Assembly: GCF_002234675.1 (NCBI RefSeq) | Contig: NC_019879.2 | Location: forward strand, 22,873,855 to 22,937,854 | DNA from: Oryzias latipes | Lineage: Eukaryota; Chordata; Actinopteri; Beloniformes; Adrianichthyidae | Direction of reading: 5' to 3' | DNA length: 64,000 nt | Shown here: positions 6,255 to 46,500 of the stretch, piece after piece | How the letters are laid out: each line of letters starts with the position of its first letter | How positions within the stretch are numbered: the first letter of the stretch is position 1 | Program-made: the position numbers and the translations under genes | Notes under the pieces: model-generated | Databases searched by the model: none | The model's input: the letters and a program-made list of their open reading frames with translations, nothing else | What the model was told of the DNA's origin: nothing

Positions 6255-7334
6255 ATGGCTGGCTCTGCTGAGGATTACGGAAACTACTCCTATGAGTATT
6301 ATCTGGAGAATGGCGACATTGAGGACCTTAAAGTGAACCACGAGCAAATGGAAACCATCCACATCATCTCAGTGGTCATCTACATCATATGCATTGTGAT
6401 TGGGCTCATTGGAAATGGAACGGTCATTTGGGTGACCGCATTCAAAAGCAAAAGGACAGTAAATAGTGTCTGGCTGCTCAATTTGGCCCTGGCAGACTTT
6501 GTTTTTGTGCTTTTCCTGCCCTTTTATGTCGATTACATCCTGAGGGACTTCCACTGGAACTTTGGTGTGGCCATATGCAAGATGAACTCATTTGTGTTGT
6601 CCATGAACATGTACGCCAGCGTCCTTTTCCTCACCGTTATCAGCATAGACAGATACGTGTCACTGGTGCATCTGAATTGGTCTCAGAGATGCCGCACAGT
6701 GCAGAGAGCCTGGTCCGTGTGCGGCTGCATCTGGATGCTGGCTGCCTTCCTGAGCTGCCCTGCTCTCATTTTTCGTGACACCGTGCTCTTGTATGACAAA
6801 GTCGTGTGCTTCAATAACTTCCACATACACAATTTACACACGGCTATGACGATTCACATTTCCATGGTGGTCATGCGGACGACTGTGGGCTTTTTTTTTC
6901 CGTTTACAGCTATTTGTGTGTCTGGCATTTTTCTGTCTGTCAGAGTCAGTCAGTCTGGGGGTTCAGTTTGCAAGTCCAGCTTTTCCAAAACCATCACGGC
7001 TATCATTGTGGCCTTCTTTTTGTGCTGGGCGCCTTTTCATATTTTCAACTTGCTGGAGTTGTCCATCCATTCTTCCAAGGAATTCCACAATATCCTAAAA
7101 TCCGGTTTACCACTGGTCACCAGCTTAGGGTTTTTCAACAGCTGCCTCAACCCTTTGCTTTACATGCTTCTAGGCAAAAAGGTGCGCCACATCCTGAAGC
7201 GTGCCTGTCTGGACATAACCAAGAACTCCCTCAGAGAGCTCAGCCAGTCCATCTCCGCCACAGAGATAGAGTCTGTGCCCGCTGTTCCTCTGGACGGACT
7301 CCCAGACGAGCCTGTGGCTTCATCAGAGCTGTGA
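6255..7334 (+). CDS. cmklr2: Chemerin-receptor-like rhodopsin-family GPCR (cmklr2/gpr1 type)
   Basis: This is a single-exon 359-residue seven-helix receptor expected at the plasma membrane. Visible class-A landmarks are GNGTVIW in TM1 (N53), LALAD in TM2 (D81), the C108-C185 disulfide pair, DRY at 132-134, CWAP in TM6 (257-260) and NPLLY in TM7 (299-303). The N-terminus is rich in Tyr and acidic residues, with an N-glycosylation site at N10, typical of chemoattractant and chemerin receptors. ECL2 contains RDTV followed by CFNNFH, close to GPR1 and CMKLR1. The start has a good context (CAACAATGG), 36 bases after a splice acceptor. Position beside ndufs1 and ino80d, as GPR1 lies in human 2q33, favours cmklr2 over cmklr1; it keeps DRY where human GPR1 has DHY. 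Other chemoattractant-receptor paralogs cannot be excluded. Confidence 0.75.
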   Translation: MAGSAEDYGNYSYEYYLENGDIEDLKVNHEQMETIHIISVVIYIICIVIGLIGNGTVIWVTAFKSKRTVNSVWLLNLALADFVFVLFLPFYVDYILRDFHWNFGVAICKMNSFVLSMNMYASVLFLTVISIDRYVSLVHLNWSQRCRTVQRAWSVCGCIWMLAAFLSCPALIFRDTVLLYDKVVCFNNFHIHNLHTAMTIHISMVVMRTTVGFFFPFTAICVSGIFLSVRVSQSGGSVCKSSFSKTITAIIVAFFLCWAPFHIFNLLELSIHSSKEFHNILKSGLPLVTSLGFFNSCLNPLLYMLLGKKVRHILKRACLDITKNSLRELSQSISATEIESVPAVPLDGLPDEPVASSEL

Positions 7335-9590
7335 CAGAACTCATCCTCACCCGTGTGAAGCTGTCCTTGAAAAAGAGTTTGTGGAAGATAACTGTTCCTT
7401 TATCAGCTGTGAACTGTCTCCGCTCGAAGGTCGAGATTTCTCTGCTTTGTTTCATTTTGTTTTTTTTATTTGAAAATTCATAGAAGAAAGACTGACATGT
7501 GGTCCAGTCGTCAGTCTTCATCCATTTCAGTTTTATAGGTAGAACATTTCATTTTTTTAAACTAATGAGCCACAAATGAGTTGATTTGGACATCTGTGCA
7601 AAAATCTCCATGGCAACTATTGTGTCAAGTCTTTTTTAAACTACTAATAGGATGACAAATTTTTTTGCCTCCTGATCATTAGATATTATTGATTAATGAC
7701 CATTTTAAACAGAATTTGCTATTTGTAGAATGTATATATCGCTGAAATAATTAGCACATTAAACGTATTACAAAATATTTATGCAAGTTTCTGTTTAAAA
7801 AAAAGGTTTTTAATTTTAAAGACCCACTCTGATCATCTTTTGATTAGTTTTAAAAGTGTTCCCAGTGGTCTTTTACGGTAATTATGATTATGCAGTTTTA
7901 AAAAGCAACTGTTGTTTTCTTGGACATAGTTTCTGCACAGCGGCAGGAGTTCATTAGAAATGTGCCTCTGATTTGCAATTTCCATTGCTGAGGGCACTCT
8001 GTTTACATGCTCTCCCGCTATTTTACAGCCCCTCACAACCCCAACCTAACATTACCGGTGCAACAAAAAGCACAAGGAATATTGGAGCTATCCGGCTGTA
8101 CAATTCTGATTTAGATACCTGCTCAGATAAGGAAAACGAAGACGAACATGGATCTATTTGTCTAAGTGGATGCATCTAAGGAGCGGAGCACGGAGCTTGT
8201 GTGCGTTGACATCACAAACATGCATTTTTTTCAAGCAGCATGTTTTTGTCTGATTCACCACAATTTGAACAAAGAAAAACTCAGAAATGCAGTATTTACC
8301 TACATTTTTATACATGTCCTCCATCCTCAGAAAAATGCCCCAAAAAATACTAAAAGCACAATTATATATCACAGTGGGTCTTAAATATGTTTTTGTTCCC
8401 CAAAACATTTATAGTGTTTACTTTTTAATAATAAAAAGTACTTATTTTAATCCTTTTGTTCCTTTTTCTTTGTTTTTCTGTTACATAAAATTCAACTTTA
8501 ATGTTTCATGAAGTTTCCAAAATGGAAACAAGATGTAAAGTTTTACACAAGTCAAAATGTGCAATTTCTTTATTCTCTATAAGGATCTCATTACCAATAG
8601 AGACATTTCCTGTGCTTTCTTTGAAGTTGACCCAGACCAGCAAAACTGGAATTGTTTGCTTAGCGGCTTCCATATGTGCCTGCAAAGAAAACATGAGCAG
8701 GCAGAAAGGAATTTGGGATTTTTTTGCTACAAGAAGTCAGCTTTTGTGACACATTACTGTCAATTACTGTAGAAAACATTTTTGAATAGCCGCATTGTAT
8801 TGATTTTCTTCTTTAACTGAACTAAAATATGTGGAAGAGATGACACAGATGCAGCCTTTCAGGTATAGACGGGATGTTATTAAATAAAATTTTAAGGAAT
8901 GTAAGAAATACTACTTTTAAAACTAAATCAACACAGGAATGGAAATGGAAAACAAACCCAAGACAAAAAAAAAACGGTGAAAGTTAACATGTGGAAATAA
9001 ATGAGTGATGCAATGAAGATAAGACACAAAAAACAAGAATTGTGGGAAAACAAGTGGGGGGGGGGGGGGGGGGCAATAACAGGACATATTATGTATGATA
9101 TTTCTGTGACTAATTTGTAATAAAATATACACCAAAGAATTTATATCAACTTAATATAGTGATAAAATAATATTTGTTAATAAAATCCATGAACTGATGT
9201 CTCTTAAAATAATTCTTTAAGCTTTTTAATGTGAGAATTTATCAAATGAATTCCACTTTTATCTCTACTTATACAAAGACAGCTTTTCATCATCCCCAAA
9301 AATGGCATTAAATAGAAAGTGTATTTTAAAAAAATAATATTTAATGGAGTTCTGAACTCGTGAATTGAAGTCGCATTGATTCCGTTTTTTGGGAGGGACA
9401 AAAGTTATTGGATCTTGATGTAAAGAGTTATGATTATTTTGTATTAAAAGATTGTCTAGCTCCAAGAAATATGCGTGCAGGGATAAATTATTTTATTGTA
9501 TTGTATTAAGCCTAAAGAAACGTTTTCAGTTTAAATCCTTTTACTACACTGTTAAAATGTAAATGGGAACGTGTACCTCCAATTCGGATT
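7335..9590. other. GPCR 3' UTR and AT-rich intergenic DNA
   Basis: The 3' UTR runs from the stop codon; an ATTAAA at about 7760 is a possible poly(A) signal. The rest holds family-A copy 2 (7818-8384), a G-run (about 9057-9073) and AT-rich sequence without recognisable genes. In human the equivalent interval between GPR1 and NDUFS1 contains EEF1B2, which I do not see here. Confidence 0.5.
7818..8384 (+). repeat. Family-A inverted-repeat element, copy 2
   Basis: It starts AAAGACCCACTCTGATCATC and ends ACAGTGGGTCTT, so its ends are inverted copies of each other. The length is about 567 bp. TTAA or TAAA-like bases border both ends. There is no transposase frame. It matches copies 1, 6 and 8 in the same orientation. 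Confidence 0.8.
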
Positions 9591-9672
9591 AAGGTAATCC
9601 GTGACGCAGCAGAATAGGAAGACTGCACAATCTGCGTTGTAAACACTCCGAGAACTCTGGTTAGGTAAGAAA
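9590..9672 (+). promoter_or_regulatory. Possible ndufs1 5' leader exon remnant
   Basis: A CpG-containing stretch (GTGACGCAGCAGAATAGG onward) ends at a good donor (GGTTAG then gtaagaaa, near 9665). It lies upstream of the first recognisable ndufs1 exon (10815) and could be the old promoter-proximal leader. The exon carrying the mitochondrial presequence start was not identified between here and 10815. The assignment rests on position alone. Confidence 0.3.
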
Positions 9673-11927
9673 ACCACTTCAAATAAATGTAAAGGCAGTT
9701 TGGATCATCTATAAACTAGCTTTTTATTTATCGCTAGCTAAGGTTGTAACGGTTTTTAATTTAAAGTAAAGAATATTTTACTGCAGAACCATAATATCTC
9801 TATTATTATCTCATTTTGGAAACCATATGAGCTAGCTACTTCTGTTGTTAGCCGCGTGGGTCATTCAGCTCACGGTTTTTTAGCATTTGTTGTTTTCTCC
9901 CGCGTGCATGTTTCTTGTTGCTAACGGCTGATGCTGTTGCGTTTTCAGTATGTTGCGTTTCCCTGTTGCGGGGCGCAGTCTTTTTCCAGTGGCTGTCGCC
10001 GGAGGGGGTTTGGGTTTGTCTGCATCTCATAGTAGTGGAGGTAGGGGGTGTCTGTGTTTTTATTAACAACAACTGTGCTTTACTCTGGCGAAGTTGGAAG
10101 GTTTTAGGTGCTGCTTTGCCATCCTTACTTTGTTCTACTTGATGGATTAAATGCAGGATTACAGGTTTGAAAGCTTTCACTTTGGATACCAGGCTGTTGC
10201 AGCCTAAAATGAACCGGTTAGGGCTTGTGCCGCCTCTTGGATTAGAAGGGTCTGCAGAGCCAGATTTGGTCCAGTTTCTTACCCAAATTCACAATGTCCC
10301 ACTTTATGTTTAGGTATACAGACTTTTTTTGTGGGTATTAAGTCATTAATTTAATTTATCTAAATTATACTACTATATTTTTACACAAATAACAACTTTA
10401 ATTTATTTTATTTTGACAGCAGCCCATCCAAGTTCCTTTCAAAATAAAACACATCCTGTATCAAATAAGATCCTCCTGCTTCAGCAGTTTTATTAAATTC
10501 AATAAAAGTAAAAAAGCAAGTCAAGCATGGCATTTTCTGTCATTATGGATGAATGGACAGTAGATTAAACTTTCATTAACATATTTTATACTCTAATCAA
10601 AAATGGCAAAACTTAATCAACCAAAACCACAAACCCATATTTTATTCAAATAGTTTGCTTTTTTATTCAAAGCCAAAGAAAGTCACAATAAAAACCTAAC
10701 AGAGTAGATGTAGCTCCAGAGCCTCAGATTGCAGACTCCTGGATTAGAAGGACTGAAGTGATACCAGTGTAAAATATTAAAATAAAAAGGGATCCTGTGT
10801 CTGATTCTCTGCAGCTCGCACTGCAACGGCAGCAGCAGCTGCCAGGAACCTCCTGGAGGTGTTTGTGGATGGAAAGCCTGTCATGGTGGAGCCAGGAACT
10901 ACTGTGTTGCAGGTAACGGAGGAATTTCATGGTACCCTCTAAGACGGTACGTTTTATGTACATCTCAGGTAGTTGATATTTGATTCAACTCCATCACAGG
11001 CGTGTGAAAAGGCAGTTGCTGGACGCTTGTCAGTTGCAGGAAACTGTTGGATGTGTCTTGTGGAGCAAGTTCCAAAGGTAGGTTATTTTTTTTTCCTCCT
11101 CCTGTCCAGAATGCCATGCATTGTCAAAATAAAAAAGGGGGTCTGGTTTGCTTTCTAGCCAGTTGCTGCTTGTGCAATGCCTGTTATGAAAGGCTGGAAC
11201 ATTTTAACCAATCCTGACAAAACCAGGAAGGTTTGATCATTTTAAAAATCATAAGCACCATTTTATGTAGCACAAAATGTTTGATGCTTTTAGTTGAGCT
11301 ATAAAATGTATTTTCTGTCAAATTAAATGTTTCTTTTTTTTTTTTTTTTTTTTTTACAAAGACGGTGTCATGGAGTTCCTCCTGGCTAATCATCCTTTAG
11401 ATTGTCCAATTTGCGACCGAGGGGGTGAATGCGATCTACAGGTAAATCAAAGACAGGCTTTTTAGTTTTTGTTTAGACGGACTCGGTTCTGAGGTTTAGT
11501 CTGTGTTTATGTGAAAGACCGGTCCATGCAGTTTGGCCGCTTCACAGAGGGTAAAAGAGCTGTGGAAGACAAAAACATCAGCCCTCTCGTCAAAAACATC
11601 ATGACTCGCTGTATACAGTGCACCCGCTGTGTGCGGTTGGGCCACGTTGAGTCTTAACCAAGTTGCTGTAGCGTTGTGTGACTCTGTAGGCGGAATTCTT
11701 GCTTTCTGCAGTTTTGCCAGTGAGATTGCAGGCGTGGAGGATCTTGGCACCACTGGGAAGGGCAACGACTTGCAGATTGGCACCCACGTGGAGAAGATGA
11801 TCATGTCCGCGTTGTCTGTTAACCTTATCGATATAGGCCCAGTTGGAGCCCTGACATCAAAGCCATACGCTTTCACGGCTCGCCCATGGGAGACCAGGTT
11901 TCCCTCTATAATTGTTTACAGCACATT

Positions 11928-12491
11928 AAAGACCCACTCCAATGAAAATGTTGTTTTTGGTGTTTTTATCATGTTACTGTGGCATTTTCCTGATGATGGA
12001 GGACATAAATATAGAAAACTAGGTTTCAAATTGCATTTTTTAGTATTTTTCTTTATTCAAATCATTGTGAATCGGGAAAAAGAGCTTTTTTGTGACTTGT
12101 AGATGGCTAGATTCACATACGTCTTTGTTTTCCTCTTCTGAGCTGGCATCTGGCTCACAACTGTACGGCTGGATAGCTCCAATATTGCTTACCATTTTTG
12201 TTGCACATGCAATGATAGGTTGCAGGTGTGAGGGGCTGTGAGCTAGGAAGATGGCATGGAAACTGAGAGCTCTCATTTATGGGTGATGGGAAAGGGTTGT
12301 GTGGTTGTTCTGCGCCAACAGTCCCCGCCCACAACTCAGAAGCATATTTTGAATGAACTCCTGCGGCTCTGCAGAAACTATGAGTTAGAAAACGACACAG
12401 GTCTTTTTTAATTTTGGCTGAAAACAACGTAATCATAATTAAAAGACCACTGGGAACACTTTGAAAAATCGAAAATCGGAGTGGGACTTAA
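11928..12491 (-). repeat. Family-A inverted-repeat element, copy 3 (reverse)
   Basis: It lies in an intron of the dead ndufs1. It begins AAAGACCCACTCCAATG and ends AATCGGAGTGGGACTTAAA. Relative to copies 1 and 2 it is inverted: the CTGATGATGGAGG block is near the left and the AAGACCACTGGGAAC block near the right. It is non-coding. Confidence 0.8.
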
Positions 12492-12698
12492 AACCAGAAA
12501 CATTTTATGATCGTTGTTTTCTTTTGTCTTCGGGAAGTGTGAAGAAACTGGATTCTCTAGAAAGGACTGTATTAAAAATTAGTTCGTACCCCGTCAGTTT
12601 CTTGCACACAGTAATAAATGAACAATGACTCAGAAACAGCTACTTATCTTTTTGTAGGTTTACTCCGCACAAAGAGCACAAATTTGTACGCAGGGTTA

Positions 12699-13383
12699 AG
12701 GCCCGTACACACCGGGACGAATATTCGCCAGGCGTTATTCGCCAGCGTTTTTCGCCACGTCTTTTGTGTTCACACCCAGGCGATTTTCGCTGACGATGAG
12801 CCGAGCGAACATGCAATTTCATTCCCTGACATTAGATGGCGCTTAATGTAAACAGAAATACTCCTGTACACAAGGTGGCACTGCGCAACTTTACGATTCT
12901 TAAAGTCGCTTTTCACTCAGAAGAAGAGAGCAAGTATTTACGCGCTTGTCAAAATCATACAAAGAAAACATGAATATTTCAAGCATCAGTAGCTCCAACT
13001 GGTACTTGGTAAGGGGATATTTAAGAATGTCCGTCATTATTTCTTCGCGGCAGTGTAGACGCTACTTGGCGTCTAACTTCTTCGCTGGTATGTGTGCTCA
13101 GCAAGGCAGTTTTGTGTTTGAGCGCCCCCAAGTTGTGTTTTACTGTAACTTCAGAAGCTCCAGGCACGTGTGCAAAAGCGCCATTCTCATTGGTCGAATA
13201 GATTTCGACGCGACGCGTCTAAAAAAAAAAACGAACCCGAGGCGTTTTTTTTTTTCGACGCTTTGGCGCGTGGCGTTTTTTCGCCTCGGTGTGCACACTC
13301 TCATTGGTGCCCTTTGTTTAGTCACGAGGCGTTAAACGTCGGCGAAAATCGCCGGCGAAATTCGTCCCGGTGTGAACAGGCCT
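12699..13383. mobile_element. 685-bp TIR element with TTA target duplication (Harbinger-like, non-autonomous)
   Basis: The left end AGGCCCGTACACACCGGGAC and the right end (reverse complement AGGCCTGTTCACACCGGGAC) are long imperfect inverted repeats. Both ends are flanked by TTA (12696-12698 and 13384-13386), the 3-bp target duplication typical of PIF/Harbinger elements. Subterminal parts repeat GGCGAAA and GCCAGCG words that can fold back. There is no transposase frame. It sits in an intron of the ndufs1 pseudogene. Confidence 0.7.
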
Positions 13384-15085
13384 TTACAGACAGATGAACA
13401 GGGTTGTTGCATCAGAGTCCGAACAAAGGAACTCAGAAATAGGCTTGGTATATATACCTTGCATTTGCATATTCAGAACCTCATCCGATGGTTCATGGTG
13501 TGAAAAACCCACCCCCAAGTTGTTGCAGGCTAGATGTTCGAAGGTCAGAGAGCTTAAAGTGTCAGATCTCTCTGAGGTTATCACAGACATTTGCCAGACC
13601 GCATACACCAGGACACAGAAAGATAAACGGGGAGGATAATGGAGGAATGTTACGAGACAATAGTCTTGGTTGTGCTCTGTAATATAATTTTGAGATGATA
13701 ATACATAGTGAATCAAGTTTAAACCATCAGTGTAATAAAAGTAAAAGTTAGTGTAAAAGGGAGTTTCTAACTATTCTGTTTCTAATCACTCCTAACAGGA
13801 AGACTGAATCCATTGACGTTCTGGATGCTGTGGGCAGCAACATCGTGTTGAGCACGTGGGGCGGAGAGGTCATGAGAGTTCAGCCTCGCCTTAGCGAGGA
13901 CATCAGCGAGGAGTGGATCTCGGACAAAACCAGGTCCGCTCCTTGTCACATCGCAGTTAGGTTTACGGGCTCCTGCGTCTGTCTGCCTCATATTTCAATC
14001 TCCTGTGACAGGTTTGCCTATGATGGGCTGAAGCGGCAGAGGCTGACTCAGCCGTTGGTGAAGGATGACTCAGGGCAGTTGGTGCCTGCGTCCTGGGAGG
14101 ATGTGCTTGCACAAGTGGCTGGAGCAGTAAGCGGTTTTCAACATGAAAAAATAAAAGAATGTGGTTTTTGATGCAGCTTTATTGAATGACATGTTTTGAA
14201 AGTTGCAAGGAGCTGAAGGACGGGATGTCGCTGCTATCTTCTTAACACTGGTATTGCTGGGATTGAGGAAGCTGACCTGCTGTTGCTGGTGTGCACTAAC
14301 CCGCGCAATGAGGCTCTTCTTTTCATCCGAAAAAGGTGAAAAAAAGTTTCTTTAAATGTGATATCAGTGACAAAAATGAGAAAAAGAAAGTGAAAAAATG
14401 TTGTTTTAGTGTAAACTGCTGCAGCTGGCTGCACAATGATTTACATGTGGCTCTGGTGGGAAAGCCAGTGGACCTCAGTTACACGTATGATCATCTGGGA
14501 GAATCTCCAAAAGTTCTACAAGAAATTGCTTCAGGAACCAGGTGACAGTTCAGTCTGAGTTAACATTTTCCGTGATCTAGAATGTTTCTCTAACAATGTC
14601 CAACCTGTTACAGGCTGTGGCCGAAGCGAAGCACCCTGTTGTTGTAGTTGGCAGCAGCTGCCTGCAGAGGGAGTATGGGGCTGCAGTAATGGCTGCCGTG
14701 TCCAGCATCGCTCAGAACGCTCACGTAGAAGACACGTGGAAGATTGTCAACGTGCTTCACAGGTGATGCGTTTCCAGAAATGTCAGCACCAGCATGAGGT
14801 TCAGAAGGGATTTCAGAGTAAAACATGCTATTTGCCTTTGTGATCAGGGTGGCCAGTCAGGTGGCAGCACTTGATCTTGGGTACAAGCCAGGGGTGAAGA
14901 TTATCAGGGAGAACCCACCCAAAGTTTTGTTCCTGCTCGGGGCTGATTCTGGCTGCGTTACCCGACAGGATTTCCCAGATGACATCTTGGTTATATATTA
15001 AGGTCAACTTTTTTTCTTTTTTTTTGTATCTGGTCAGTCTGTTGTCTCCAATAGGTACTGATTCCAACACGTCCGGTTCTGCACA

Positions 15086-15690
15086 CCCTTAGCAAAAAGT
15101 AGTACACGCGCAGTTTGTTTTATCAAGTATATGAGTGAAAGTATAGCAAGTCTACACTGTAGTGTAGGACGTATACTAACTGAAAATTTCTTCAGACTAA
15201 TTTGGAACATTTTAAGTTTGCAAAATTTAAATAATCCTCCTCAGTAATGCAAATGTGTCCTCTATAGAGGACATTTCTAAACCAGAATATCTTCAAACCA
15301 TCACATACTACTGAGTGAACTCCTTTTAGTATCTACCAAGAACATTTGGAGCTTTTTAATGATACCAAATGTGAAGGGGCGGGGCTCTGGGAATTGTAGT
15401 TTTTGGTGGATTTAAAAAAAAAAAAGGTTGAACAAAATTTATTTTCTCTGGTAATTAACTAGCATTTAGTCCAGCGCAGTGATATAAAACATTGGAGTTA
15501 TGTGACCGGAACTTCTTTTGTAGGTGTGCATTTTCTCTGTGGATTATCACTTTTTAATCCACATCCAGCAGCCAATCAGAATTGAGTATTCACCCGGACC
15601 GTGCTATAAAAAAGGAAACTTCAAGTATACTGACTCATTTTTATGTAAATACTAAGTATATTGGTAGTACACTTAAATAGACTACCTTTA
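15086..15690. repeat. Family-D interspersed repeat, second copy
   Basis: It shares TATACTAACTGAA, TTCTTCAGACTAA and the terminal AAATAGACTACC with the 2035-2445 copy. The left edge is near AGCAAAAAGTAGTACACGC and the right edge near CTACCTTTAGCTG. It fills most of the ndufs1-pseudogene intron between the remnants at 15001 and 15923. Its class is unresolved. Confidence 0.45.
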
Positions 15691-16616
15691 GCTGGGGACA
15701 TACAGAGTGGTGTCTCAAACCCAGGAAAATTCCCTCAGTGGAGAAGGCCAATAAACGATTTCAAAGATGTGAAAAATGGGTGAAGCTTTTTCTCCATGAC
15801 TCAACTAAAACTGAAATGAGATCAGAGTTAGGTGGAGCAACAGTTGAAGTCAATCTTTCCACTTCAGCAGCAGGAGGAATCCACAGCATCAACATTTCAA
15901 TACTTTACTTACAATTACCCAGGTCACCATGGCGACGTGGGGGCCCCAATAGCGGACATAATTCTCCCCGGCGCTGCTTATACTGAAAAATGCGGCACCT
16001 ACGTGAACACAGAGGGCCGGGCGCAGTAGACCAGAGTTGCTGTGACTCCTTAAGGCTTGGCCAGGGAGGACTGGAGGATCATCAGAGCCATTTCTGAGTT
16101 TCACTAGAAAACAGTGTCGGCATGTTACGTTCAACAAAATAGAAGGCTTGAACTTGTTGTACATTTCTAATTAAGCTTGCAGGAGTGAAACTACCATAAG
16201 ACTCTCTGGATGAGGTGCGGAACCGACTGGCAGAAGTTTCCCCAAATTTGGTTGGAAATGACAACATTGTGGAAGCCAACTGTGCTAAACAGGTTGCTGA
16301 GCTGTTTAACGTTAGCATGTACCTTACCTACACTTTACCTGCACTTCAACAGGCTGAGAAGTCAAGCACAGCTGGATGCGTTCTGTGAATTTCTCAGTCT
16401 GTCATACTTTATGTTATTGTCCGCCTGCCCCCCATCTGTTTCAGTCAACTAGGCTCTCCTAACAGAACCTATTGTTCCTCCACAGCTTACCGTGAGAGAC
16501 TTCTATATGACAGGTGGGTTTATCAGTGATCCAAACGGAGAATTAGAGGTCTTGACTTTTCATTGATACTTCTAATTTATCACATTTTTTAACATTCAGT
16601 TTCAACATTTTTCTTT

Positions 16617-17160
16617 ATAGACACACTCCAATAAAAATTAAGTTTTGGGTGTTTTTAACATGTTCTTTTGGCGTTTTTCTGATGATGGAGGACATATTCT
16701 GTATGAGCTTAATTGTGACGTTGAAAATACGAAGGGAGGGCCACAGGTTCCCTGCCCCGCTCCATTCTAATGCATGCACTTGTAGACAAATAGATCTATA
16801 TACGTCTCTGCTTTCCTCGTCTGAGCTGTGCATGGCTGAACAACTCCAATGTGGCCATTTTTATTGTATGGATAATGTTAGGTTGGGGTTGTGAGGGACT
16901 GTAAGCTAGCAGAGAGGGTAAACAGAAAGTTATCTGCAACAGGGAGAGGAATTGGGGGTGGGGGTTGCTCCATGCCAATGGTCCTGTCCACAACTCAAGA
17001 AATTGCAATGAACTACTGCCGCTCTGTGTGGAAACTATGTTCTAGAAAACAACACAGATTTTTTATATTTGGCTAAAAATGGCATGATCATAATTAAAAG
17101 ACCACTGGGAACGCTTTTACAATCGATAAAAAAATCATGGGGGAGTTCAAATCTTTAAAG
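16617..17160 (-). repeat. Family-A inverted-repeat element, copy 4 (reverse)
   Basis: It begins TAGACACACTCCAATAAAAA, carries the GATGATGGAGGACATA block near the left and AAAAGACCACTGGGAACGC near the right, and ends close to GGGAGTTCAAATCTTTAAAG. It is inserted between the last two exon remnants of the ndufs1 pseudogene, and its ends are more diverged than those of copies 2, 8 and 9. Confidence 0.75.
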
Positions 17161-17724
17161 AAAAGTCTCAAACAATGAGTGTCAGAGTAAGCATTTGGAT
17201 TTAGTACAGAGCTAACCAAACGAATTGTTTAAAATCATCTATTTACAACCTGTTTACAAAAAATAATTTCCTATCATCATAATAATATCTAGTAAATGAT
17301 TATTTTACAAGTCATGGGATGAAACTCATATTTTGCTCTAAGGACAGATGACTGACCTTAGTTTTTGATGGCACAAATATTTGTGTATGCACTTTCTTTT
17401 CCAAAAAAATAAAAAATAAATTTGATGTATTTCTCATAATTTATGTGAAGGTGTAGTAACCCAACTCACCATAAGGAGGGTTATTCTCAATGCAACACTG
17501 CACACTGATTATGAACTACTTCAATGTGTATTCATCAATGCTTTGTATATAAATATGGATTTCTTCATTTTACATATTTACAGTTCTGCCTCTTTTCAAT
17601 CGTTCCTGTCGTGTGTTTTATCTATAGATCCTGTAAGCAGAGCCTCCCAGACCATGGCCAATGTGTTAGAGCTGTTACAGAAGGAGCACAGGCTGGGATT
17701 GAGCCAGCCATGTGCTCAAGATAA

Positions 17725-18340: not shown

Positions 18341-20108
18341 AACTGCACAGTCCTTCACAAAAACTGTAACATGCGTCCCGATCAGTTATTTACAGGATCC
18401 CGGCACACAAAAGATATTTTAACAAAGTTGAGTTTCCAATATGGTAGGAGAGGTTGTTGTTGTTGAGCGGATTGTTGTCATGTCCCCGCAGTGCCTGTAG
18501 TGGTGCTGTGATGAGTCTGCCTTGGACCCAACAAAAATCCTAGGCAGCCTACCTACTGCTTGTATTCGCTGTGGATAGTCTATTTTTACATTCACCGTTA
18601 TTTTCAAGAGAAATCCAACTCGATGAAGACCATCGCTAACAACCTATCTGGACGATCGATGCGCAAATAGCCTAGCTGATTCTGTTAGACATTTCAGCGG
18701 TCTGTCTGGAGCGAATACCTTTGGCAGCCTATACCAATTCAAGGTAAGCGAAGTAGTTCACAGCCCCGGCCTTGATTTCTGAGCGGAGCGCTCTCCGCGG
18801 GCTTCGGTCGGTAGGCGCATTTACTGGAGACCGCCGCCCCTGCTAAGTTTATAGGCCGCCCTATGCATTATTTATCTTACAGCCATACATACTTCTACAG
18901 TATCATGAGTGCCTGGTAATAAATACTCATTCGTGGCACTTCTATCTTTTATATCCCGATAATGCCTAACTGTACCCATGGTACTCGGAATTCATATCGA
19001 TTAGTGCGAAGGCCTTAGGAAATAGGCCTGAAGCCTCGAATGTATACCCTTTGTTTGAAAGTATTTGACCATAATATTATAAAAGTTGAATCGAACTAAA
19101 TATACCTTTTATTTTTTTTATTTTATGACTAATTTTGCATTTATCAATGTAAAACTAAACGGGAACTACACCTTTTATAGTGTTACCATTCGCTGATATT
19201 TCCGTTTCCTGGTTAGCTACCGCCTACCAATTTGTGTTTTTAGCTTTGCTAGCTAATTAGCAAATAGGACTTTTTGTTTTTTTCACCCACGAGATCGTTT
19301 GTTTAACTTACTAAACCTATTGCACATATACTCTTTACATAAATACAATGACGCCTGCTGGACGTATATTTGTCTAGTTTGTTATAGTAAGAACTTTCAC
19401 AGCTGTCTTTTGGTCTTAGAGCTACGCTAGCTGGCTAGCTCCCCGGAAACCAGATGTGGTCATCGGTAGCCCACGTTAGTTTACTTCATGACCCGTTCCC
19501 TCCTAAAGTTATCTAAATTACAAATGCTTATTTAAACTACACATTCCCAATGTGTCCCTTCGTATACTCATCTCCTTTCTGTGAAACTTAAAACCAAAAA
19601 GTCAAACGCAAAATGCTCACAATTCACCGCGTTTTGGTGCTGTTCATGGATTTCTGGCTTCCTGTGGAGTTTAATTAAAAAGAGCATCAATAACGCAATA
19701 AGCCATAAGTGTGACTTTTTAGCAATGCTGTGTTAACCTGGTTTATAATTACACACAAGTTTTCTGTTATTGGACCAAACAGCACACTGGTTTTCTTTTC
19801 AAGTTTGTGAAATATTAACTTAATGTCACATGTTGTTGCTACATACTTATCAATTGAATCGTAATTAATTTTCAAAATAAAAATTTATTTTCTTCATTAG
19901 CAGCCAGGTTTTTACGTTTTAGAATAGGTAAAGTAAATTTGTTGTGGTTTCAGTTCATTCAGCCAATGAATGTCCTTTTGCAGGGTAATACATTTTTTTG
20001 CATGTTTACAGAGAATAAAAATGTTTTTTTTAGCTTTATGTGATTAGTCTTGGTTACTTTGATAAAGTGAAGTTGAAAAGTTTTTAAATGTAATCTCTAT
20101 CCCATCAG
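18340..20108 (+). promoter_or_regulatory. ino80d: ino80d promoter, 5' non-coding exon and first intron
   Basis: A locally GC- and CpG-rich stretch (about 18620-18850, including GAGCGGAGCGCTCTCCGCGG) surrounds a strong splice donor (TTCAAG then gtaagcg, junction near 18745). The next acceptor is at 20108, just before the first coding exon. This fits a TATA-less housekeeping promoter with a non-coding first exon. The remaining intron is AT-rich with no repeat I can name. Boundaries are inferred. Confidence 0.45.
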
Positions 20109-20134: not shown

Positions 20135-23100
20135 ATGTATGAAGGCAAACACATACACTTCTCAGAGGTGGACAATAAGCCGTTGTGCTCATATAGTCCG
20201 AAGCTGTGCAAACAGCGCAGACTAAATGGGTACGCGTTCTGCATCCGCCATGTTCTGGAGGACAAGACGGCTCCCTTCAAGCAGTGTGAATATGTGGCAA
20301 AGTACAACAGCCAGCGGTGTACCAACCCCATCCCAAAGTCTGAGGATCGCAGGTTTGTGTGTAAACAGCACTAAGTTGAACTTATACAACTTTGCACTTT
20401 CATCTTATGGTGTCTCCATCTTTTTCAGGTACTGCAATAGCCACCTGCAGGTTCTTGGCTTTATACCGAAGAAGGAGCGGAAAAAGAAGCACGATGCTTT
20501 GGAGGAGATGCGCCCTCGAGCGCACTTGGAGTCAGTAGCTCTAAACATAACTGTTCCCTCTTTAGTTCTGAAAGCTCCCAATGGCATTGAGGACCTTCCA
20601 CCATCTCCCCCCTGTGCACGTCTGTTACCCCTCCCCGACGGGGAGTTACTGGACCCTTTTGCCTTTTACGAGGATGATACAGATGGGGACGAAGTGGGCC
20701 CTGCTCGAAAGGGCAGTGCTTTGAAGAAAAAACTACAGAGTCGGCTGATGCACAATCAGAAACTCTGTCAAGACGCCAATTTCCAGCCACCTCCTGAGCA
20801 CTTTACTCCCTCCCCCATCCCCCGGGCGCAACCCTCGTCCCCTCTCAACACTCATCTCCCGAGGCATCAACCAGGTCTTCTCCAGCAGTGTCAGCACTCC
20901 AGCGCAACTTCCTTCACCTTCCCAGGGCAGCAGCAGGGTTTATTATGCAATCCACCACCACCTCAGACGGTCAACTTTCTGCCTCCAGGGGTGCCTGCGA
21001 ACGCAGCGCCCAGTCCAGGGCAACACGCCGGACCATCGCTCGGCAGGAAAACGCCTTTCACCGCAACACAGTTGCCCAACTGCAAGGATGACGGCAGCAA
21101 CAATCAGCAGCATGTGGTCGTCATGCGTCCAAAGGCCTTCACACCTCCGGTCAGCTGCCTGGTCAGGCTGCAACACCTGGTGCAGATCTGTGCCAAGAGA
21201 CATCGAGAGCATGGAGACCTCTTTCCTCATCTCGGTGAATTCTAAAAAAAAAATCTCTTCATACCTTTAGAACTTGGACATGTATTCAAGGATGAGATGG
21301 AGGAGCGACTCTAACAAGCTGTTTTCCAGGGTTGGACTGGTCGGAGGACAGTGGAGATGATGACATCGAAGAAGCAGAGGGATTCACTCCTTCTCAGGTG
21401 TTCAGGCCGCCAAACGGGTTTGTATCAATATGCATAATGGGTTTGACATGAAATCCCCATTTCTCATCATGACGGCCGCTGTGTTCTTCCTGCGCAGGTT
21501 GGATGAAGACGGCGGGTGCTCGCGGAGAACGCGACTCCTGCGGCTTTGCTCGTACCTCCAGGAGAAATACAAGCACATGTGCCGGCAGGAGAGGGTGCGC
21601 ATTCGCCAGAAGAGATACCGTTACGTCTTTCGCAAAGCCCTGCTGCACGCCGCCAGCAGCAACCCGGACTGTGCGGGGCAGCTGATGCAGGAGTTGAACG
21701 GTGGATCTCAAACCTCTACATGGTATGCCAACATCTGTCCCAATCACCTCAGAGTAGGGATGGATACTGTTTTTATCCAGTGCTGAACTGGAACTTTTGA
21801 AACCGTTTTGGTACCTATATGGGGCTTGAACCGGTGCTTCAAAACTCAAAAAAACCAACAATTTTTCCTAAAGAATGTAAGTATGATGAAGTGATGTCAC
21901 AGGATGAAGGAGAGCGCTTGAATGTGCCTAGGATGCTTTATAGAAAGACCTACTCCGAACATCTTTTGTCCTATTGCAGAAGCATTCCCAGTGGTCTTTT
22001 TGATTATAATTATGCCGTTTTTGGCCAAAATACATTAACGTAGACAAAAACAGAAATTTTATTTTTTTTAATTCAGAGCAATAGACTGTACCAGAGTGTA
22101 CTTGATGACACACATTAGGACTGTCACATGTCTCTCTGCCTTAAAACCAAGAGTTTTAAGGCTTCTTTCAGAAGAGGCCGGTTTCATCCGTATTAATCAT
22201 CTGCTCCGGATGATAATTACTCTCCGCGATTATCTTCTACAGCGTTTCGAGATATTTTGCGGCTGCTTCTGAGTCAGCTGATGCCATTTCTCCATTCAGG
22301 GGCACAAACTTGAGTTATAGTGATTCAGGAAGCAGTTGAAACAAATGTGAAATATTCTTTAGCAGCCGGCAAGGAAGCTGACTCTTCTCCATCAAGTCGC
22401 TGAATTAGAATCTTTTTCCGGGAAGTTCAGCCAAACTTTTGCTCGCTTCACCTTCAACATTTTGACCGAATCTCCGCCCTCCCTCATGGCCTCACCCATT
22501 CTTATATGAGCCTGCCCACAATCGCTGGAAAGGGAAAATGAATTGAATTTAAGTAATTGACGTGTCCAATATGACACGCAGAAGTCCAGTTGTACCAGCA
22601 CCGAGTTTCAGTACCAATCCCTACCTGAGTGCAATATGTCTTTATTGAAATGTGAGTCTGAAATGTAAAAGAGTAGCGTGTTCACGTCTGGATCTTCTTC
22701 ATGTTTTCAGTCTGTCTCCAACGAAGCGGCAGAGCTCAGATCCAGGGACTTGCACCGGCAACACCAAAGGCCACACCTGCAGCAACAGAGCTCTGCCCTT
22801 CACTCAACACTGCTTTCAGCGTATCTTTTCCACCATTTACAAAAAAAAAAGCCTCTTTTTTTTTACTCTTCACCCCATTTTTTAATCCAACCTGTTGAGT
22901 TATGTCCTTCATCAATCTGTAGATATTCTGTCGAATCGTTCCCAGCAGCTCTTTGCGAGCTGCACAGCCAAGTTTGCGGATGGTCAGCAGTGCTCCATAC
23001 CCGTGTTTGACATCACGCATCAGACCCCCCTCTGTGAAGAGCATGCCAAAAAGATGGTGACTATTTTCTTTTTTTTTTTTTTTAACAAACACTTTTGTCT

Positions 23101-40400: not shown

Positions 40401-43400
40401 GGAAGACAAAACAAAGCTCAGTGGAAACACAGGGACGTTGCTGCCTCTGCCCACCCAAAACACACACCTGAAGGAAGAAATTATTCAAATAAACTTTAAA
40501 GGCAAGATAAAACCCCCTACAACCTTTGTCAAAACCCCTTAAACCCACAACAAGCCATCAACCTTCCTCCCCGGGCTTAGATCTAACCACCCAATCAAAT
40601 GTCCTTTTGTGCTCTGCCATGTCAACTTTTGTCTCTGCCAAACACATGAAAATTTAACCCAGCCTGTGAAGAAACTTAATTTTTAAAGCTTGTAACCATC
40701 ACCATTCTGGTCACAGATTGTGGTAGTAGATGAAGGTAGAAACTGCCTTGACAACCCCTCTCATGTGTGAGGGTTTGACACCCACTAATGACCACAGCTC
40801 TGGACAGCCACCAAAAAATAATTTAAGCTCATTTTCCCTTCATCTGAGAACAGATGAAGCGCTTCTTATAATGGCAGTTAAAGATCTGTCTGACTGGTTC
40901 TTGTGTCAGACATTCCTAGCAGACTCTACACATTTGGACCAAAATGTTAGGGTACCAGGTCTTTCTAGTGCTCTCCAAAAACTCAAAAAACACTGGATAC
41001 CCTCTACTGATAAATCCGTCAAGACCATTTTGCAGACCTAAGGAGACGGGGAAGCTAACATTTTAACCAAAACTCCTCCAATTTCTTGGTTCCATGTTTT
41101 TTTTTGCCTCTAATTATGAGTAACTCCAGAAAAGAATGAACTCTGGCCAAAAAGAATGAACTCTGACCATCTCACGAAGACTAGTTCCAGGACCCTAGAC
41201 CATTAAACTCTTTCAGCTAAAGTCATTGAGCGATAAATCCTAACACGGTGAAGCAGCAAAACACAGATATGGCTGTGGCTTAATGACACGCACCATAAAG
41301 GGGAAACAGAAAATGATGGACAACACACTGAATTATTGACAGAGCTAAATGGATTTGTTTCCCTGAAGAGAACCAGGAAGGAAAAGAAGAGGTATCAAGA
41401 AAGAATGTTAAACATTACTAATTATATAAAAGGCAATTATTTTTAGGAAAAATTTAAAGCTGAGAATTTTCTTTGCAAAATTGATTAACAATAACCTTTA
41501 AATATTGGCTAACATTTTCTGCTTCAATCTTCGGCAAACTGTTTTAAAGAAAACTTAACAACATCAAGAGACATAAAGACAGAGTGTGCAACCAAAAGAC
41601 TCAGTCAGTCAAAGGTGTAAAATGTATTACGTTGATATTGATATTATTTGCCAGAAGCATGATTGTGGGAAGTAAAACTGCATAAATCTCACTTTGAAGT
41701 ACAGCCTAATGCTTGTGGTCTTTACTCACCACAGTGTCAGGAGGCAGGGGTCTATGGGCAGACCGATCCAGAAAGTAAAGAGTCATTTAATAGCAGCATG
41801 CTGAGGCCATCCCACCATACCTTAAAAAATGACTATTATAGTGCATCTGCTACAATACTTGGACCATAGGACAAAACTGTTTCAATGGTCCCACTCCAAT
41901 CATCCTTTGATCCATTGTAAAAGCGTTCCCAGTGATCTTTCAATTATGATTATGCCTTTATTAGATTAATCGCAAAAAATCTGTTTGTTTTCTAGGACAT
42001 AGTTTCTGCAGAGCAGCAGGAGTTCATTGGAAATTTGCTTCCGAGTTGTGGGCGGAACTGCTGGCACAGAGTAAGCCGGCCTCATTTCCCATCATCCATC
42101 GGTTTAAACTCTGTCCCCCGACCTAATAGGTACAACAAAAATGGCGAGCAATATTGGAACTTTCCAGCCTTACAGTTTTGAGCCAGATGCCGGACCAGAC
42201 GAGGGAAACAAAGACGTACATGAATCTATTTGTCTGCAAGTGGATGCATCAGAATGGTCAAATAGCATGTTTTTGCTAGTCTAAACCAGTGTTTTTCAAC
42301 CTTTTCTGAGCCACGGCACACTTTAACCTTAAAAAAATCCCGCGGCACACCAGCATGCAAAAATTAAAAAAAAAAGGAGAAACTCATAGTCTGTATTTAT
42401 CTACAGCCCCTCCGCAATCTCACATGCATTTTTGAGATAATTGTTGCAGAAAAAAACTGGAAACTGCAGCTGTTTTTTTCTAAAAGATGCAATAAAAGAT
42501 AAGTTAGAAGATTTAAAAACAGTTTGATGTGTGTTCGTTGGTTTCAAGATGTTTAACAACAGATCTCCGTATGCGCTGTCACTCTCACAACCCAATGCAT
42601 CATGGGAGATGTAGTGCATAAAACGGCCGGAGATTGCTTTTCGAAACTTCATTGTTTTGTTCACTTGTTCCACGGTCTGATACCGGATTCTGTGGAAAGC
42701 TACACCGCTATAGACGAGCTTTAGCTGCTATTTTTTTTTAGAACTGAGCGACTTGACGAGCTAAATCGGGACAAGGAAGTGAAGACTTTAACCACTTCTG
42801 ATTGGTCAGACTGATAACATGTGATTAAGCCTTCAAGAATGATTGGTGGAGACAGTTAAAGGGACGGGACGTTTCCAAAATACAGCCGAAGGTGCAGCTG
42901 AATCGCGGTACCTTATCAAAATGTCTTTAAAAAAAATAAAATAAACGCAAAGAAAAAGTATTTTATGATCTTTTATATTCCTAACTCCTCAGTGTTTTAT
43001 CAGGGCCTGTTTGGATGAACAGAGAGCTGAAATCATGGAGATGGAAAATTTTTTTAGATCAGTTAATGAGGGCAATTTCCCACGGCACACTTGACCATCT
43101 CTCATGGCACACTAGTGTGCCGCGGCACACTGGTTGAAAAACACTGGTCTAAACCATATCCGTCTCTATTTTGGGCTAATTTACTTAATTCTAGTCATAA
43201 CATTAAATAATAGTAAAAGAATAAAAAAAAAGGGAATGGCTAGATGAAAAAAGAAAGTAAGGCAAAATTCCATTAAAATACATTGAAACTGAGTTTTAGC
43301 AGTAAGACTGCTGTTTAATCTCTTATCTTCCTGTAGGAAAGTGAACTTAGATCTAAGATAACAAGTAAAACGTTTATGCAAGTGAACGATTAACTTTCTA

Positions 43401-43728
43401 AAGGACGAAAAACATGAACAAGAGCCTTTTAAAGTTCGTAAGAAGAATAGAATTTAATTAAAATGTGATAATTGCTTCACATGCAATAATTGGTCCGTTC
43501 AATGAGGACCACAATCAATAGAATAGAAACGAAAAGAAAAATATAATGACTATGAATGAAAGATGGATTATTTTTTCTTTTTTAAATTTATCTGCTGAAG
43601 TTAAAGTGTGCATTTAAACAGATAAAACCATTTCGTGGCTATAATAATCGTCACGTGACACGAAGCAGCAGAACAGTCCATTTTTTATTTACCTGAATCC
43701 CCGGGACTCCGCTCGGGATTTGAGCCAT
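29975..43728 (-). CDS. stk24: STE20-family GCKIII kinase, STK24 (MST3) type
   Basis: Ten coding exons with consensus junctions are read from high to low coordinates: 43693-43728, 38599-38829, 36976-37032, 36748-36856, 36499-36656, 34384-34569, 34129-34274, 33940-34057, 33780-33845 and 31440-31576, plus a candidate last exon 29975-29990 (419 residues in total; MST kinases are about 416-443). The kinase shows [11 protein letters not shown] (29-39), catalytic K51, HRDIKAANV (catalytic D142), DFGVAG (160-165), and the activation loop [15 protein letters not shown] with the regulatory Thr at about 176. The tail has an acidic Ser patch ([10 protein letters not shown]) and a helical end ([21 protein letters not shown]) like the region that binds CCM3/PDCD10. 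It is a cytosolic Ser/Thr kinase of cell polarity and stress. Next to slc15a1 and dock9, as in human 13q32, it is stk24; stk25 and stk26 are close alternatives. Confidence 0.88.
30460..31330. repeat. Possible unclassified interspersed repeat in the last stk24 intron
   Basis: This stretch differs from its AT-rich surroundings (CAACGCGAATTCAAGCGACC, CTAGCGGCGTATGGGTGACG) and contains loosely inverted blocks: CTTCCCTACCCCTCTGG near 30740 and GGGGTAGGGGAAG near 31155. The pattern suggests a foldback DNA element with diverged ends. No transposase frame or target duplication is visible. Confidence 0.35.
31611..33652 (-). mobile_element. Harbinger-type TIR element with Myb/SANT gene remnant, interrupted by another insertion
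   Basis: Perfect 24-bp terminal inverted repeats begin CAGGGGCCTGTTGCACAAAA at both ends (31611 and, on the minus strand, 33652). On the minus strand from about 33424 a short frame reads [20 protein letters not shown] followed by [13 protein letters not shown], which resembles the start of the Myb/SANT-like DNA-binding protein of PIF/Harbinger elements. The frame stops at about 33312, where a second sequence with CACTCAA ends begins (to about 32408). No transposase frame survives. It lies in the stk24 intron between 31577 and 33779. I see no clear 3-bp target duplication. Confidence 0.65.
32408..33314. repeat. Insertion with CACTCAA-type ends nested in the Harbinger-type element
   Basis: The left border reads ACACTCAAAAAACG and the right border TTGAGTGTGC, an inverted pair. 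The interior is AT-rich with repeated TTCAACTTAAATT- and AAGTTGATTCAA-like words. It splits the Myb/SANT remnant. The superfamily is unassigned. Confidence 0.45.
34800..36480. other. stk24 intron with SINE-like and low-complexity sequence
   Basis: This intron between coding exons 36499-36656 and 34384-34569 holds a SINE-like segment (35350-35585) and T-runs (about 35984 and 36060). The rest is AT-rich and unassigned. Confidence 0.4.
35350..35585 (+). repeat. SINE-like interspersed repeat
   Basis: The words GGCCCTTGGGCAAGACCCTT, GTGCGAATCAGTGAAAACCG and the closing CGAAAGGTGAACAACAACAA are typical of a widespread fish short interspersed repeat. No convincing target duplication or intact internal promoter box was identified, so the family is not named. 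Confidence 0.4.
37896..38086. mobile_element. Family-B short TIR element, copy 3 with full TTAA flanks
   Basis: It begins CCCTTGTGCTATCCTAGGCA and ends AAGGTAGCACAAGGG, and both sides carry TTAA (37892-37895 and 38087-38090). It is about 191 bp and non-coding. This is the clearest copy for the TTAA target duplication. It lies in the stk24 intron between exons 36976-37032 and 38599-38829. Confidence 0.85.
38830..41886. other. stk24: Part of the first stk24 intron, no gene recognised
   Basis: AT-rich intron. The plus-strand open frame at 40069-40542 has no recognisable domain and lies opposite the gene's strand; it is treated as chance. A lineage-specific regulatory element could be present but none is evident. 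Confidence 0.4.
41887..42278 (+). repeat. Family-A inverted-repeat element, copy 6, interrupted by a hAT-type insertion
   Basis: It starts GTCCCACTCCAATCATCC and follows family A through GAGCCAGATGCC and GTGGATGCATCAGAATGG to GCATGTTTTTGCTAGTCTAA. There it is cut by the element at 42287. The expected right part of family A is not clearly resumed after 43154, so it was already truncated or has diverged. Confidence 0.75.
42287..43146. mobile_element. 860-bp hAT-type element with perfect 8-bp target duplication
   Basis: The ends are CAGTGTTTTTCAACC and its exact inverse GGTTGAAAAACACTG. The direct repeat GTCTAAAC flanks both sides (42279-42286 and 43147-43154), an 8-bp target duplication as made by hAT transposases. 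The subterminal GCCACGGCACAC and GTGCCGCGGCACAC blocks also mirror each other. No transposase frame is present, so it is non-autonomous. The perfect duplication implies recent insertion relative to its surroundings. It is in stk24 intron 1. Confidence 0.9.
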
Positions 43729-44190
43729 GGCGTTAAAAAGTGAAGACGACGCCTCTCCTCCTGTCTGTCTTCAGCTTCCTTTGAGGGGTAACGGTACTCT
43801 TCAGTCGGACCAGACTTACGGTTACTTAAAGTCTCAAACGTGAACAGAAAAATAAACACAAAACATAAAAGAAAAAGAAAAAAAACGCACTTGTCTTGAC
43901 TTGCCGAATTGTCTTTGGGCGCCTTTACTTTTTCTAGTTAAAGATGGCTAACATTGATTTAGACTTTTAAACATGAACTTCGGCGGTTAGCGTAGCCGTA
44001 GCGCCTCGACATTCCCTTCGCCCGGAATCCTTTAGTGGGCAATAGTTGAACAGCGCAGAGGAAAAAACACTCCTCTGTCCGGTGTTTCCTCCGTTCCATC
44101 ACTTGACTACATGTCCCAGCGCCATCTTTACCAATGCCATTTTAATTAGGGAGACGTCACAAAACGTCATGACGACGTCATCGGTACAGG
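43729..44190 (-). promoter_or_regulatory. stk24: stk24 5' UTR and promoter with a cluster of CRE-like sites
   Basis: Upstream of the ATG (43728) the DNA becomes CpG-containing. At 44151-44183 it has three closely spaced CRE/ATF-like motifs (GACGTCAC, ACGTCATGACG and GACGTCAT). A YY1-like AAGATGGCGC (minus strand, about 44120-44129) lies nearby. There is no TATA box. This fits a TATA-less broad promoter reading leftward; factor binding is inference. Confidence 0.5.
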
Positions 44191-46500
44191 AAGGGCGTCA
44201 ACATTAAGGTAGCATTCTAAAATATTTAGCGTTTATTGTTTTACAGACATTAAATCATAATCATGTTTATATAATTGCTAAATTGGAATATGCAAACCTA
44301 CGATGTAGATAAACTCAGTTTATTCAGATTCCCAGCTTTTTGCCACAGTGATTTAAAAAAAATGACATTCCGATGCACATAGGCTTTAAAGTTAACAAAT
44401 TATTATAAATGTTAGTATGAAGTCATAATTGTAAATGTACACATATATTAAACTGAATCTTCATTAAAAGACATGAAATCATGTTTTTGATGTTCCCATG
44501 CATTCTCTTATGATGGAGGACGTATTTAAAGAACTTTAGGCTTAAACTTGTGTTTTTAAGTATGCCTTTATTCAAATCATTGTGCATCAGGAGCAGATGG
44601 GAAAAAAAGCTTGTATTTGTGAAAATTACACTGGGCGGCCCACAAGCTCCATGCTCTGCTCCATTCTGATGCATCCACTTGTAGTCGAGTAGATCCATGT
44701 ACGTTTTTCGAATGAACTCCTGCTGCTCTGCAGAAATTATTTCCTTGAAAACGACATACGTAATTTTTTGTTTTTTCATTTTGGCTAAAAACAGCATTAT
44801 TGTAATTTAAAGACCAATGCTTTAAAAAAAGATCAAAAGAAGATCAGATTGGGATATTAAATACAACATCTAAATGATTAATGAATGGATGAGTGGTGAA
44901 ATGTTTCAAGAAATAGGATTTGAGCTTTTTAAAAAACTTTATAGAATTAACACTTTTACAAAACAGATAACGAGTGCATCTAAAACAAAGCAATGACCAT
45001 GGAATATCTAATATAAAAATAATTACAGCATGGGACACGTGAAAACTGTCCATTGGTAGCAAGTAGTAAACGGAGAAAAATTAACAAGAGAAAAAAAAGT
45101 TCCACACTATGGTACGCTTTAGGAGTATGAATATTTTTAAGAGGATTATAAAATTGATCAAATTCAGTAATAAATAAAAAATCTTTTCTGCTCTACAATT
45201 ATGTATAGAAAATTTATTTTGAAGAAGGAAAAAATGTAACAGTATTTTCTATATATTTTTTATCAAAGCAAAAATAGGTATTTACATATTTAAAGTCTAT
45301 GATGCTATTAAGTTTTTATTTACAAATCATTCCAACTGGTTCCAGAGCGCAACAATCACATTTAGTAAAGGTGAAGTACAGATTCAGGAGGGTGATTTCA
45401 AAAGCTACAGTTATAAATTTTTGTAAATTTGGGGATGCACTATTGTTGAATGAATATTGTGCAGGACTTTTTAATGTATTTCCTTGGCTATTATTTTAAT
45501 GCCGGTGTTTTTATGGTACTACCCATGGTTTACCCTAATAAATATTACTTTGGAATTTTCCAAAAAATTACACCTCTATGATGCTCCTTTTTCACACATT
45601 GTGTTTATTTTTGCTTTTTTTTTAATTTAAGATATGGATTCCTTTAATCATTAAAGAAGGGGAAAGAAGATTTTAAGTCCAGTTGGCAGGACTCAACTTC
45701 AACACTTCATCACCTGGACAACTAAGAACTTTTGCTAACTAAATGATCCATAATAAGAAATCTAAAAGTTATTTTACACCTACATGTTATTTGTTAAATC
45801 TATAGCCAATCTAAATCTGAATGCTATGACCTTGAGGTTAGATTGAATTTTTTTGCATTTTTATTTGCATTTATTGTATATATTTAACATCCACTTTAAT
45901 CATTGAAATCCACATGCTTGTAGCTGACACTCTGGAGTTAAAAGTAATTAAAAAAAGAGGCAAATTCGTAAAAAATGGGCTAAATCTAACAATAAGTATG
46001 AGTTAAATTTAACAAGCAGTACTTCATATTGGGCAATAGCTTATATTCCATACAGTTTAGGCTAAGAACATAAGCCTATACTGTATGGAGCAAATATTTT
46101 ATGACTGTGGCAGCAGCTTTATTTACCTTACGGAGTAAAAAGAGGGCAGGAAGGGGAAGATGTCTTAAGACTTTTATTCTTGTTTTGGCATTTAAAAAAG
46201 AACAACTTTTACTTGTTTGTATAATTTCCAAATAAATTGTTAAAAAAGGTGGGATTGCCCTGATATAAATGCTGAGTCAAATAACGTCCTAAAGACAGAG
46301 ATAAGTCAAACTGTAGTTGTTCTTGTTTTTTGCACTTCCCATTACCGGTAAACTATTGTAAAAAGCTCTTAAACTTGGATACAGCTTCATAAAAATACAG
46401 TTTAAAATAAAAAGAAAGAAGAACAAGTACCTGTACCAATTTAGTTTGAAGTACTGGTGTATATGGGTAAATGAATCACAGGAGTCAGGGGCGCAGAAAA
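44191..46500. other. AT-rich intergenic region between stk24 and slc15a1
   Basis: It contains family-A copy 7 (44465-44859). The remainder is AT-rich, with no gene or classified repeat that I can support. Confidence 0.45.
44465..44859 (-). repeat. Family-A inverted-repeat element, copy 7 (reverse, shortened)
   Basis: It keeps the TTATGATGGAGGACGTATTT block near the left, the CATTCTGATGCATCCACTTG block mid-way and GATCAGATTGGGATATTAA at the right, in reverse orientation. At about 395 bp it is shorter than full copies (about 520-620 bp), having an internal deletion. Confidence 0.7.

Follow-up and report, generated by a model that had tools for sequence, protein, structure and literature searches.

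Unprocessed pseudogenes of duplicated genes carry introns and colinear exons together with stops, frame breaks and lost splice sites, and lie between unbroken neighbours. When one copy from the teleost genome duplication is lost, it likewise dies in position and its function is assumed to be carried elsewhere; most such losses are old. In the 'orphan retrogene' case, the intron-bearing parent is dead in place and its retrogene has taken over. Described here is a 64,000-nucleotide stretch of the Oryzias latipes genome (NC_019879.2, positions 22,873,855 to 22,937,854 of the forward strand; hereafter the window, in whose coordinates all positions are given). It contains an intron-bearing gene for NDUFS1, the 75 kDa subunit of complex I, which is a pseudogene in place. 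Vertebrates cannot do without this core subunit. Our reading is that ndufs1 is very probably dead where it stands, that it seems to have died fairly recently, and that its loss was presumably allowed by another working copy elsewhere in the genome. As a recently dead, unprocessed pseudogene of a core gene the locus is of a familiar kind, and nothing essential separates it from other unprocessed pseudogenes (its neighbours being unbroken in the parts read); here the gene belongs to the core of complex I and its living copy is presumed to lie elsewhere. It differs from most losses of teleost-duplication copies in that the decay is estimated to be recent, and from an orphan retrogene in that the retrogene is hypothetical.

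NDUFS1 was compared with the window by tblastn, which returned a single colinear series of exons on the plus strand at 10847-17715, with an E-value of 2e-177 for the main set and of 7e-11 and 1e-5 for the last parts; no second ndufs1 was found by this search in the 64-kb window, the two other matches having E > 2. The stitched read-through remnant matched the NDUFS1 chains of solved mammalian complex I structures at E 1e-299, the exon 8 remnant alone matched mammalian NDUFS1 at 4e-17, and exons 7 and 8 matched the Pfam families Fer4_Nqo3 and Fer4_NDSU1, so that sequence and domains both place the remnant with the 75 kDa subunit in the NDUFS1/NuoG family. In a frameshift-aware alignment of 2,004 exon bases with the 727-residue human protein, 489/644 aligned residues were identical. 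The preliminary description of the locus, made from its letters, had reported about 16 exon remnants in order at 10815..17724, and tblastn and alignment confirmed 16 there; the order and the introns were thus right and the start was wrong, coding exon 1 at 9950-10040 having been overlooked. This exon was spotted by eye at a place where tblastn gave no match. From its ATG it encodes MLRFPVAGRS...; after a GTAGGG donor the frame continues into exon 2. It is identical to human NDUFS1, which begins MLRIPVRKAL, at 10/20 aligned residues. The complete remnant comprises 17 coding-exon remnants and 16 introns at 9950-17724, and because introns are kept between the coding-exon remnants a retrocopy is ruled out, as had been stated. 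Its parts are listed below, with lesions placed by human codon number from the frameshift-aware alignment of the exons as found.

9300..9949, plus strand: probable promoter and 5' untranslated region of the dead gene, a function suggested by CpG observed/expected
9950..10040, plus strand: coding exon 1, with ATG, presequence and donor GTAGGG (found by eye)
10815..10912, plus strand: exon 2 remnant, open (alignment)
11000..11077, plus strand: exon 3 remnant, with an 8-codon loss that includes Cys64, another 2-codon loss, and Arg76 replaced by Trp
11159..11230, plus strand: exon 4 remnant, its 3' end 2 codons short
11362..11441, plus strand: exon 5 remnant, without its in-frame acceptor, the closest AG being out of frame
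11518..11635, plus strand: exon 6 remnant, without its in-frame acceptor and with a 4-codon loss
11712..11897, plus strand: exon 7 remnant, open, Gly at the Cys226 position, Pfam PF22117 match
13799..13933, plus strand: exon 8 remnant, open, Pfam PF22151 match
14012..14126, plus strand: exon 9 remnant, open
14203..14335, plus strand: exon 10 remnant, 44-codon loss with a frame break, then a 3-codon loss; possibly two ancestral exons fused by the 44-codon deletion
14425..14541, plus strand: exon 11 remnant, frame broken by a loss at the 3' end
14614..14762, plus strand: exon 12 remnant, 4 codons fewer than in human
14848..15002, plus strand: exon 13 remnant, stop at codon 569
15923..16098, plus strand: exon 14 remnant, without its donor and interrupted by stops at codons 605 and 613
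16176..16310, plus strand: exon 15 remnant, stop at codon 636
16445..16513, plus strand: exon 16 remnant, frame break at the 5' border, stop at codon 677
17628..17724, plus strand: last exon remnant, its frame broken at codon 709

The alignment recovered all of the damage described earlier, namely five in-frame stops (codons 569, 605, 613, 636 and 677), frameshifts, which number six (codons 114, 140, 384, 463, 673 and 709), and the 44-codon loss. Also seen were lesions absent from that account: the 8-codon loss with Cys64, the replacement of Cys226 by Gly, losses of 1-4 codons and lost splice sites. The shorter losses measured 8, 2, 2, 4, 3, 4, 4 and 1 codons, and some of them, for instance the one in exon 12 (4 codons), might reflect ordinary variation among fish. 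With exon boundaries placed by eye, 15/16 donors are GT and 16/16 acceptors are AG; splice function was lost at the exon 14 donor and at exons 5 and 6, where the AG lies out of frame, and the breaks at codons 114 and 140 fall at these two lost acceptors. An additional lesion considered between TRC and FASEIAG was rejected, the stretch 11636-11711 being an ordinary short intron. Translation of the remnant spliced as found ends after 125 codons, in exon 5. Where NDUFS1 and NuoG have an intact frame and ligands for iron-sulphur (Fe-S) clusters, the remnant has stops, frame breaks and losses at positions 64 and 226, both presumably Fe-S ligands. Judged by these lesions, the locus can no longer encode the 75 kDa subunit.

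The lesions were compared with the coding sequence of the two flanking genes:

6255..7334, plus strand: gpr1 (chemerin-like receptor 2), an open frame of 359 codons
20135..24811, plus strand: ino80d, no stop in the exons read (judged exon by exon)

Eleven lesions were counted in 2,004 ndufs1 bases, whereas the flanking genes showed none over about 3.8 kb, and equal error rates were rejected (Poisson 6e-10, Fisher 7e-6; the test includes 99 neighbour bases a second time, giving 3,879 instead of 3,780, which leaves the outcome unchanged). The locus thus carries several disabling lesions above the local error rate. It is therefore very improbable that a living gene has been given its stops and frame breaks by faulty sequencing or assembly; moreover, the window contains no N, and some of the lesions (losses of several codons, missing splice sites, substitutions at invariant residues) are atypical of read errors. 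Both neighbours had been called intact, which holds for gpr1 and, in the exons read, for ino80d; the statement covers about 3.8 kb of coding sequence, and in ino80d the openness of the piece at 22935-23056 depends on one of two readings. A residual product is likewise very improbable. The ATG, the presequence and exons 1-4 are open, and the 9300-9950 region upstream of the dead gene has a CpG observed/expected of 1.06 at 34% GC (window mean 0.47), so that the locus might make a non-coding RNA or a short product of at most 125 codons, with the presequence and part of the 2Fe-2S domain; yet position Cys64 is lost, other N-terminal invariant residues are replaced, and the premature stop would probably trigger mRNA decay. 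The CpG value permits a recently or still active promoter without demonstrating one, because CpG observed/expected is likewise high at about 12401-13600, 18601-19400, 42601-44400 and 56401. That the species truly lacks NDUFS1 function, which would fit the missing intact copy in the window, is hardly conceivable for a core subunit established as essential in vertebrates.

The extent of decay was estimated at columns of bacterial NuoG, drawn from 75 of 80 fetched loci mostly labelled Alphaproteobacteria. Across 102 columns that are invariant in NuoG and have a letter in the remnant, human departs from NuoG at 5 and the remnant at 13, 4 of these positions being common to both; a remnant difference at position 66 stems from a deletion and was dropped, which leaves 8 changes confined to the remnant vs 1 confined to human (two-sided sign test by hand, ~0.04). 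Looser columns gave 11 remnant-only changes (2 in a deletion) vs 2 human-only (n=159), and still looser ones 17 (3 in a deletion) vs 2 (n=197). These counts point to lost selective constraint with modest strength, the control being the human protein. The remnant is changed at 8/96 columns where NuoG and human agree, which converts to a d of ~0.04 substitutions per neutral site, and the five stops convert to 0.07-0.085 (95% range ~0.02-0.20). We therefore estimate the overall decay at roughly 0.04-0.08 neutral substitutions per site, with wide limits. An excerpt of PMC7161988 dates the teleost genome duplication to three hundred million years ago. By this estimate the ndufs1 copy died far more recently than that event, and death since the duplication was rejected because a decay of 0.04-0.08 is too slight for ~300 million years without constraint. 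Unconstrained sequence of such age is expected to be past recognition. The genome-duplication origin offered in the preliminary description survives only if both copies worked until recently; as an old death it fails, the decay being too slight.

Plain neutral decay predicts the distribution of the stops poorly. All five lie in the last fifth of the gene (window 15001-16452, codons 569-677), unlike the frame breaks and codon losses, which are spread over the whole of it. The sequence from codon 569 on offers 50/248 units of stop opportunity, and the clustering has a probability of 3e-4 with the boundary chosen afterwards, or of ~0.7%, by our own estimate, for a cluster this wide anywhere. Identity to human is equal in the two parts (374/493 residues before codon 569 vs 115/151 after), so a better-kept 5' part is unsupported; the cluster may reflect chance, gene conversion in which a living copy overwrote the 5' part, or earlier death of the 3' part. 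Some changes counted as decay may also be normal fish changes. Several are mild (R200K, N282S, A322V), and d falls to 0.02 if half of the 8 are normal for fish.

We infer the following order of events. The gene would have been under normal constraint until fairly recently and would then have decayed without selection. The start codon and presequence are still there, as are most of the splice sites and a promoter-like region. Its loss would have been permitted by another working ndufs1, whose presence elsewhere in the genome is nearly certain because complex I requires NDUFS1. The surviving copy would be either the genome-duplication partner, retained by the lineage until late, or one of newer date that arose by duplication or relocation; the data agree with a late loss of one genome-duplication copy as well as with a recent relocation or small duplication. 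For the latter, a segmental or retroposed copy that took over before the original died, we would put the chance just short of even: the slight decay suits a recent event, and the replacement of a parent gene by its own copy is a known route. That the survivor is the other teleost-duplication copy, the two having functioned side by side through most of teleost history until the present one died recently, is a serious possibility of slightly lesser weight. It would fit an intron-bearing copy that adjoins gpr1 and ino80d, and it draws on a duplication of the age cited above and on an excerpted zebrafish gene list in which ino80db appears, so that the block was probably duplicated (PMC9748118). 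The same excerpt, however, gives ndufs1 without an a/b suffix, a weak hint of a single copy, and a decay of 0.04-0.08 per site requires two copies to have been kept very long and one lost late. More doubtful is the proposal that the essential ndufs1 moved recently in this lineage, the new copy being perhaps an intronless retrogene and the ancestral gene being left dead at its conserved place; in that case, working ndufs1 genes could occupy different loci in close relatives.

The value of the locus is mainly annotational: it is a clear trap, where automated annotation may predict a spurious ndufs1 or conclude that an essential gene has been lost. Textbooks name the differential loss of essential-gene copies among the causes of hybrid breakdown. 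Should the death be of the recent date that the decay indicates, the locus with the living ndufs1 may differ between sister species; and if a recent move of ndufs1 is true, the locus difference alone could cause hybrid inviability. No ndufs1 pseudogene was mentioned in the titles and abstract starts of the open-licence PubMed Central papers retrieved. Among excerpts from them, the complex I genes named in PMC12617070 are ndufs5 and ndufa13, with some mitochondrial genes said to match two proteins owing to the teleost duplication, and the one mentioned in PMC5819677 is ndufs5.

The six best matches of gpr1 were structures of chemerin-like receptor 2 (GPR1). The ancestral location ascribed to ndufs1 in the preliminary description, between gpr1 and ino80d, agrees with the human order, presumably INO80D-NDUFS1-EEF1B2-GPR1; eef1b2, sought across the window with a provisional query sequence, gave no match (E up to 1). 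Further along, the window has Pfam matches to Pkinase, PTR2 and DHR-2, which we take to belong to stk24-, slc15a1- and dock9-like genes. Of 15 minus-strand open stretches, 2 were tried as a divergent gene upstream of exon 1, and neither matched a Pfam family (E up to 1). On the minus strand of 7335-9950, a 76-residue open stretch containing AATAAA is preceded by an AG-type acceptor and could be the terminal exon of another transcript; it too gave no Pfam match. An Rfam scan of the window at gathering thresholds gave no match, and in viral contigs 7 stretches fitted the pattern used to look for a relative of exons 8-9, none of which encoded one.

Two kinds of repeated or mobile sequence were seen in and around the dead gene. 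One lies in intron 7:

12699..13383, strand unassigned: 685-bp element whose termini are inverted and whose TTA target is duplicated (ends placed by eye)

This element is rich in CpG and is presumably PIF/Harbinger-like. The other is a dispersed repeat present in three copies, one of them inverted, around and inside the gene (7832-8164, 11926-12467 and 16615-17138), the matched pieces of which are 75-85% alike.

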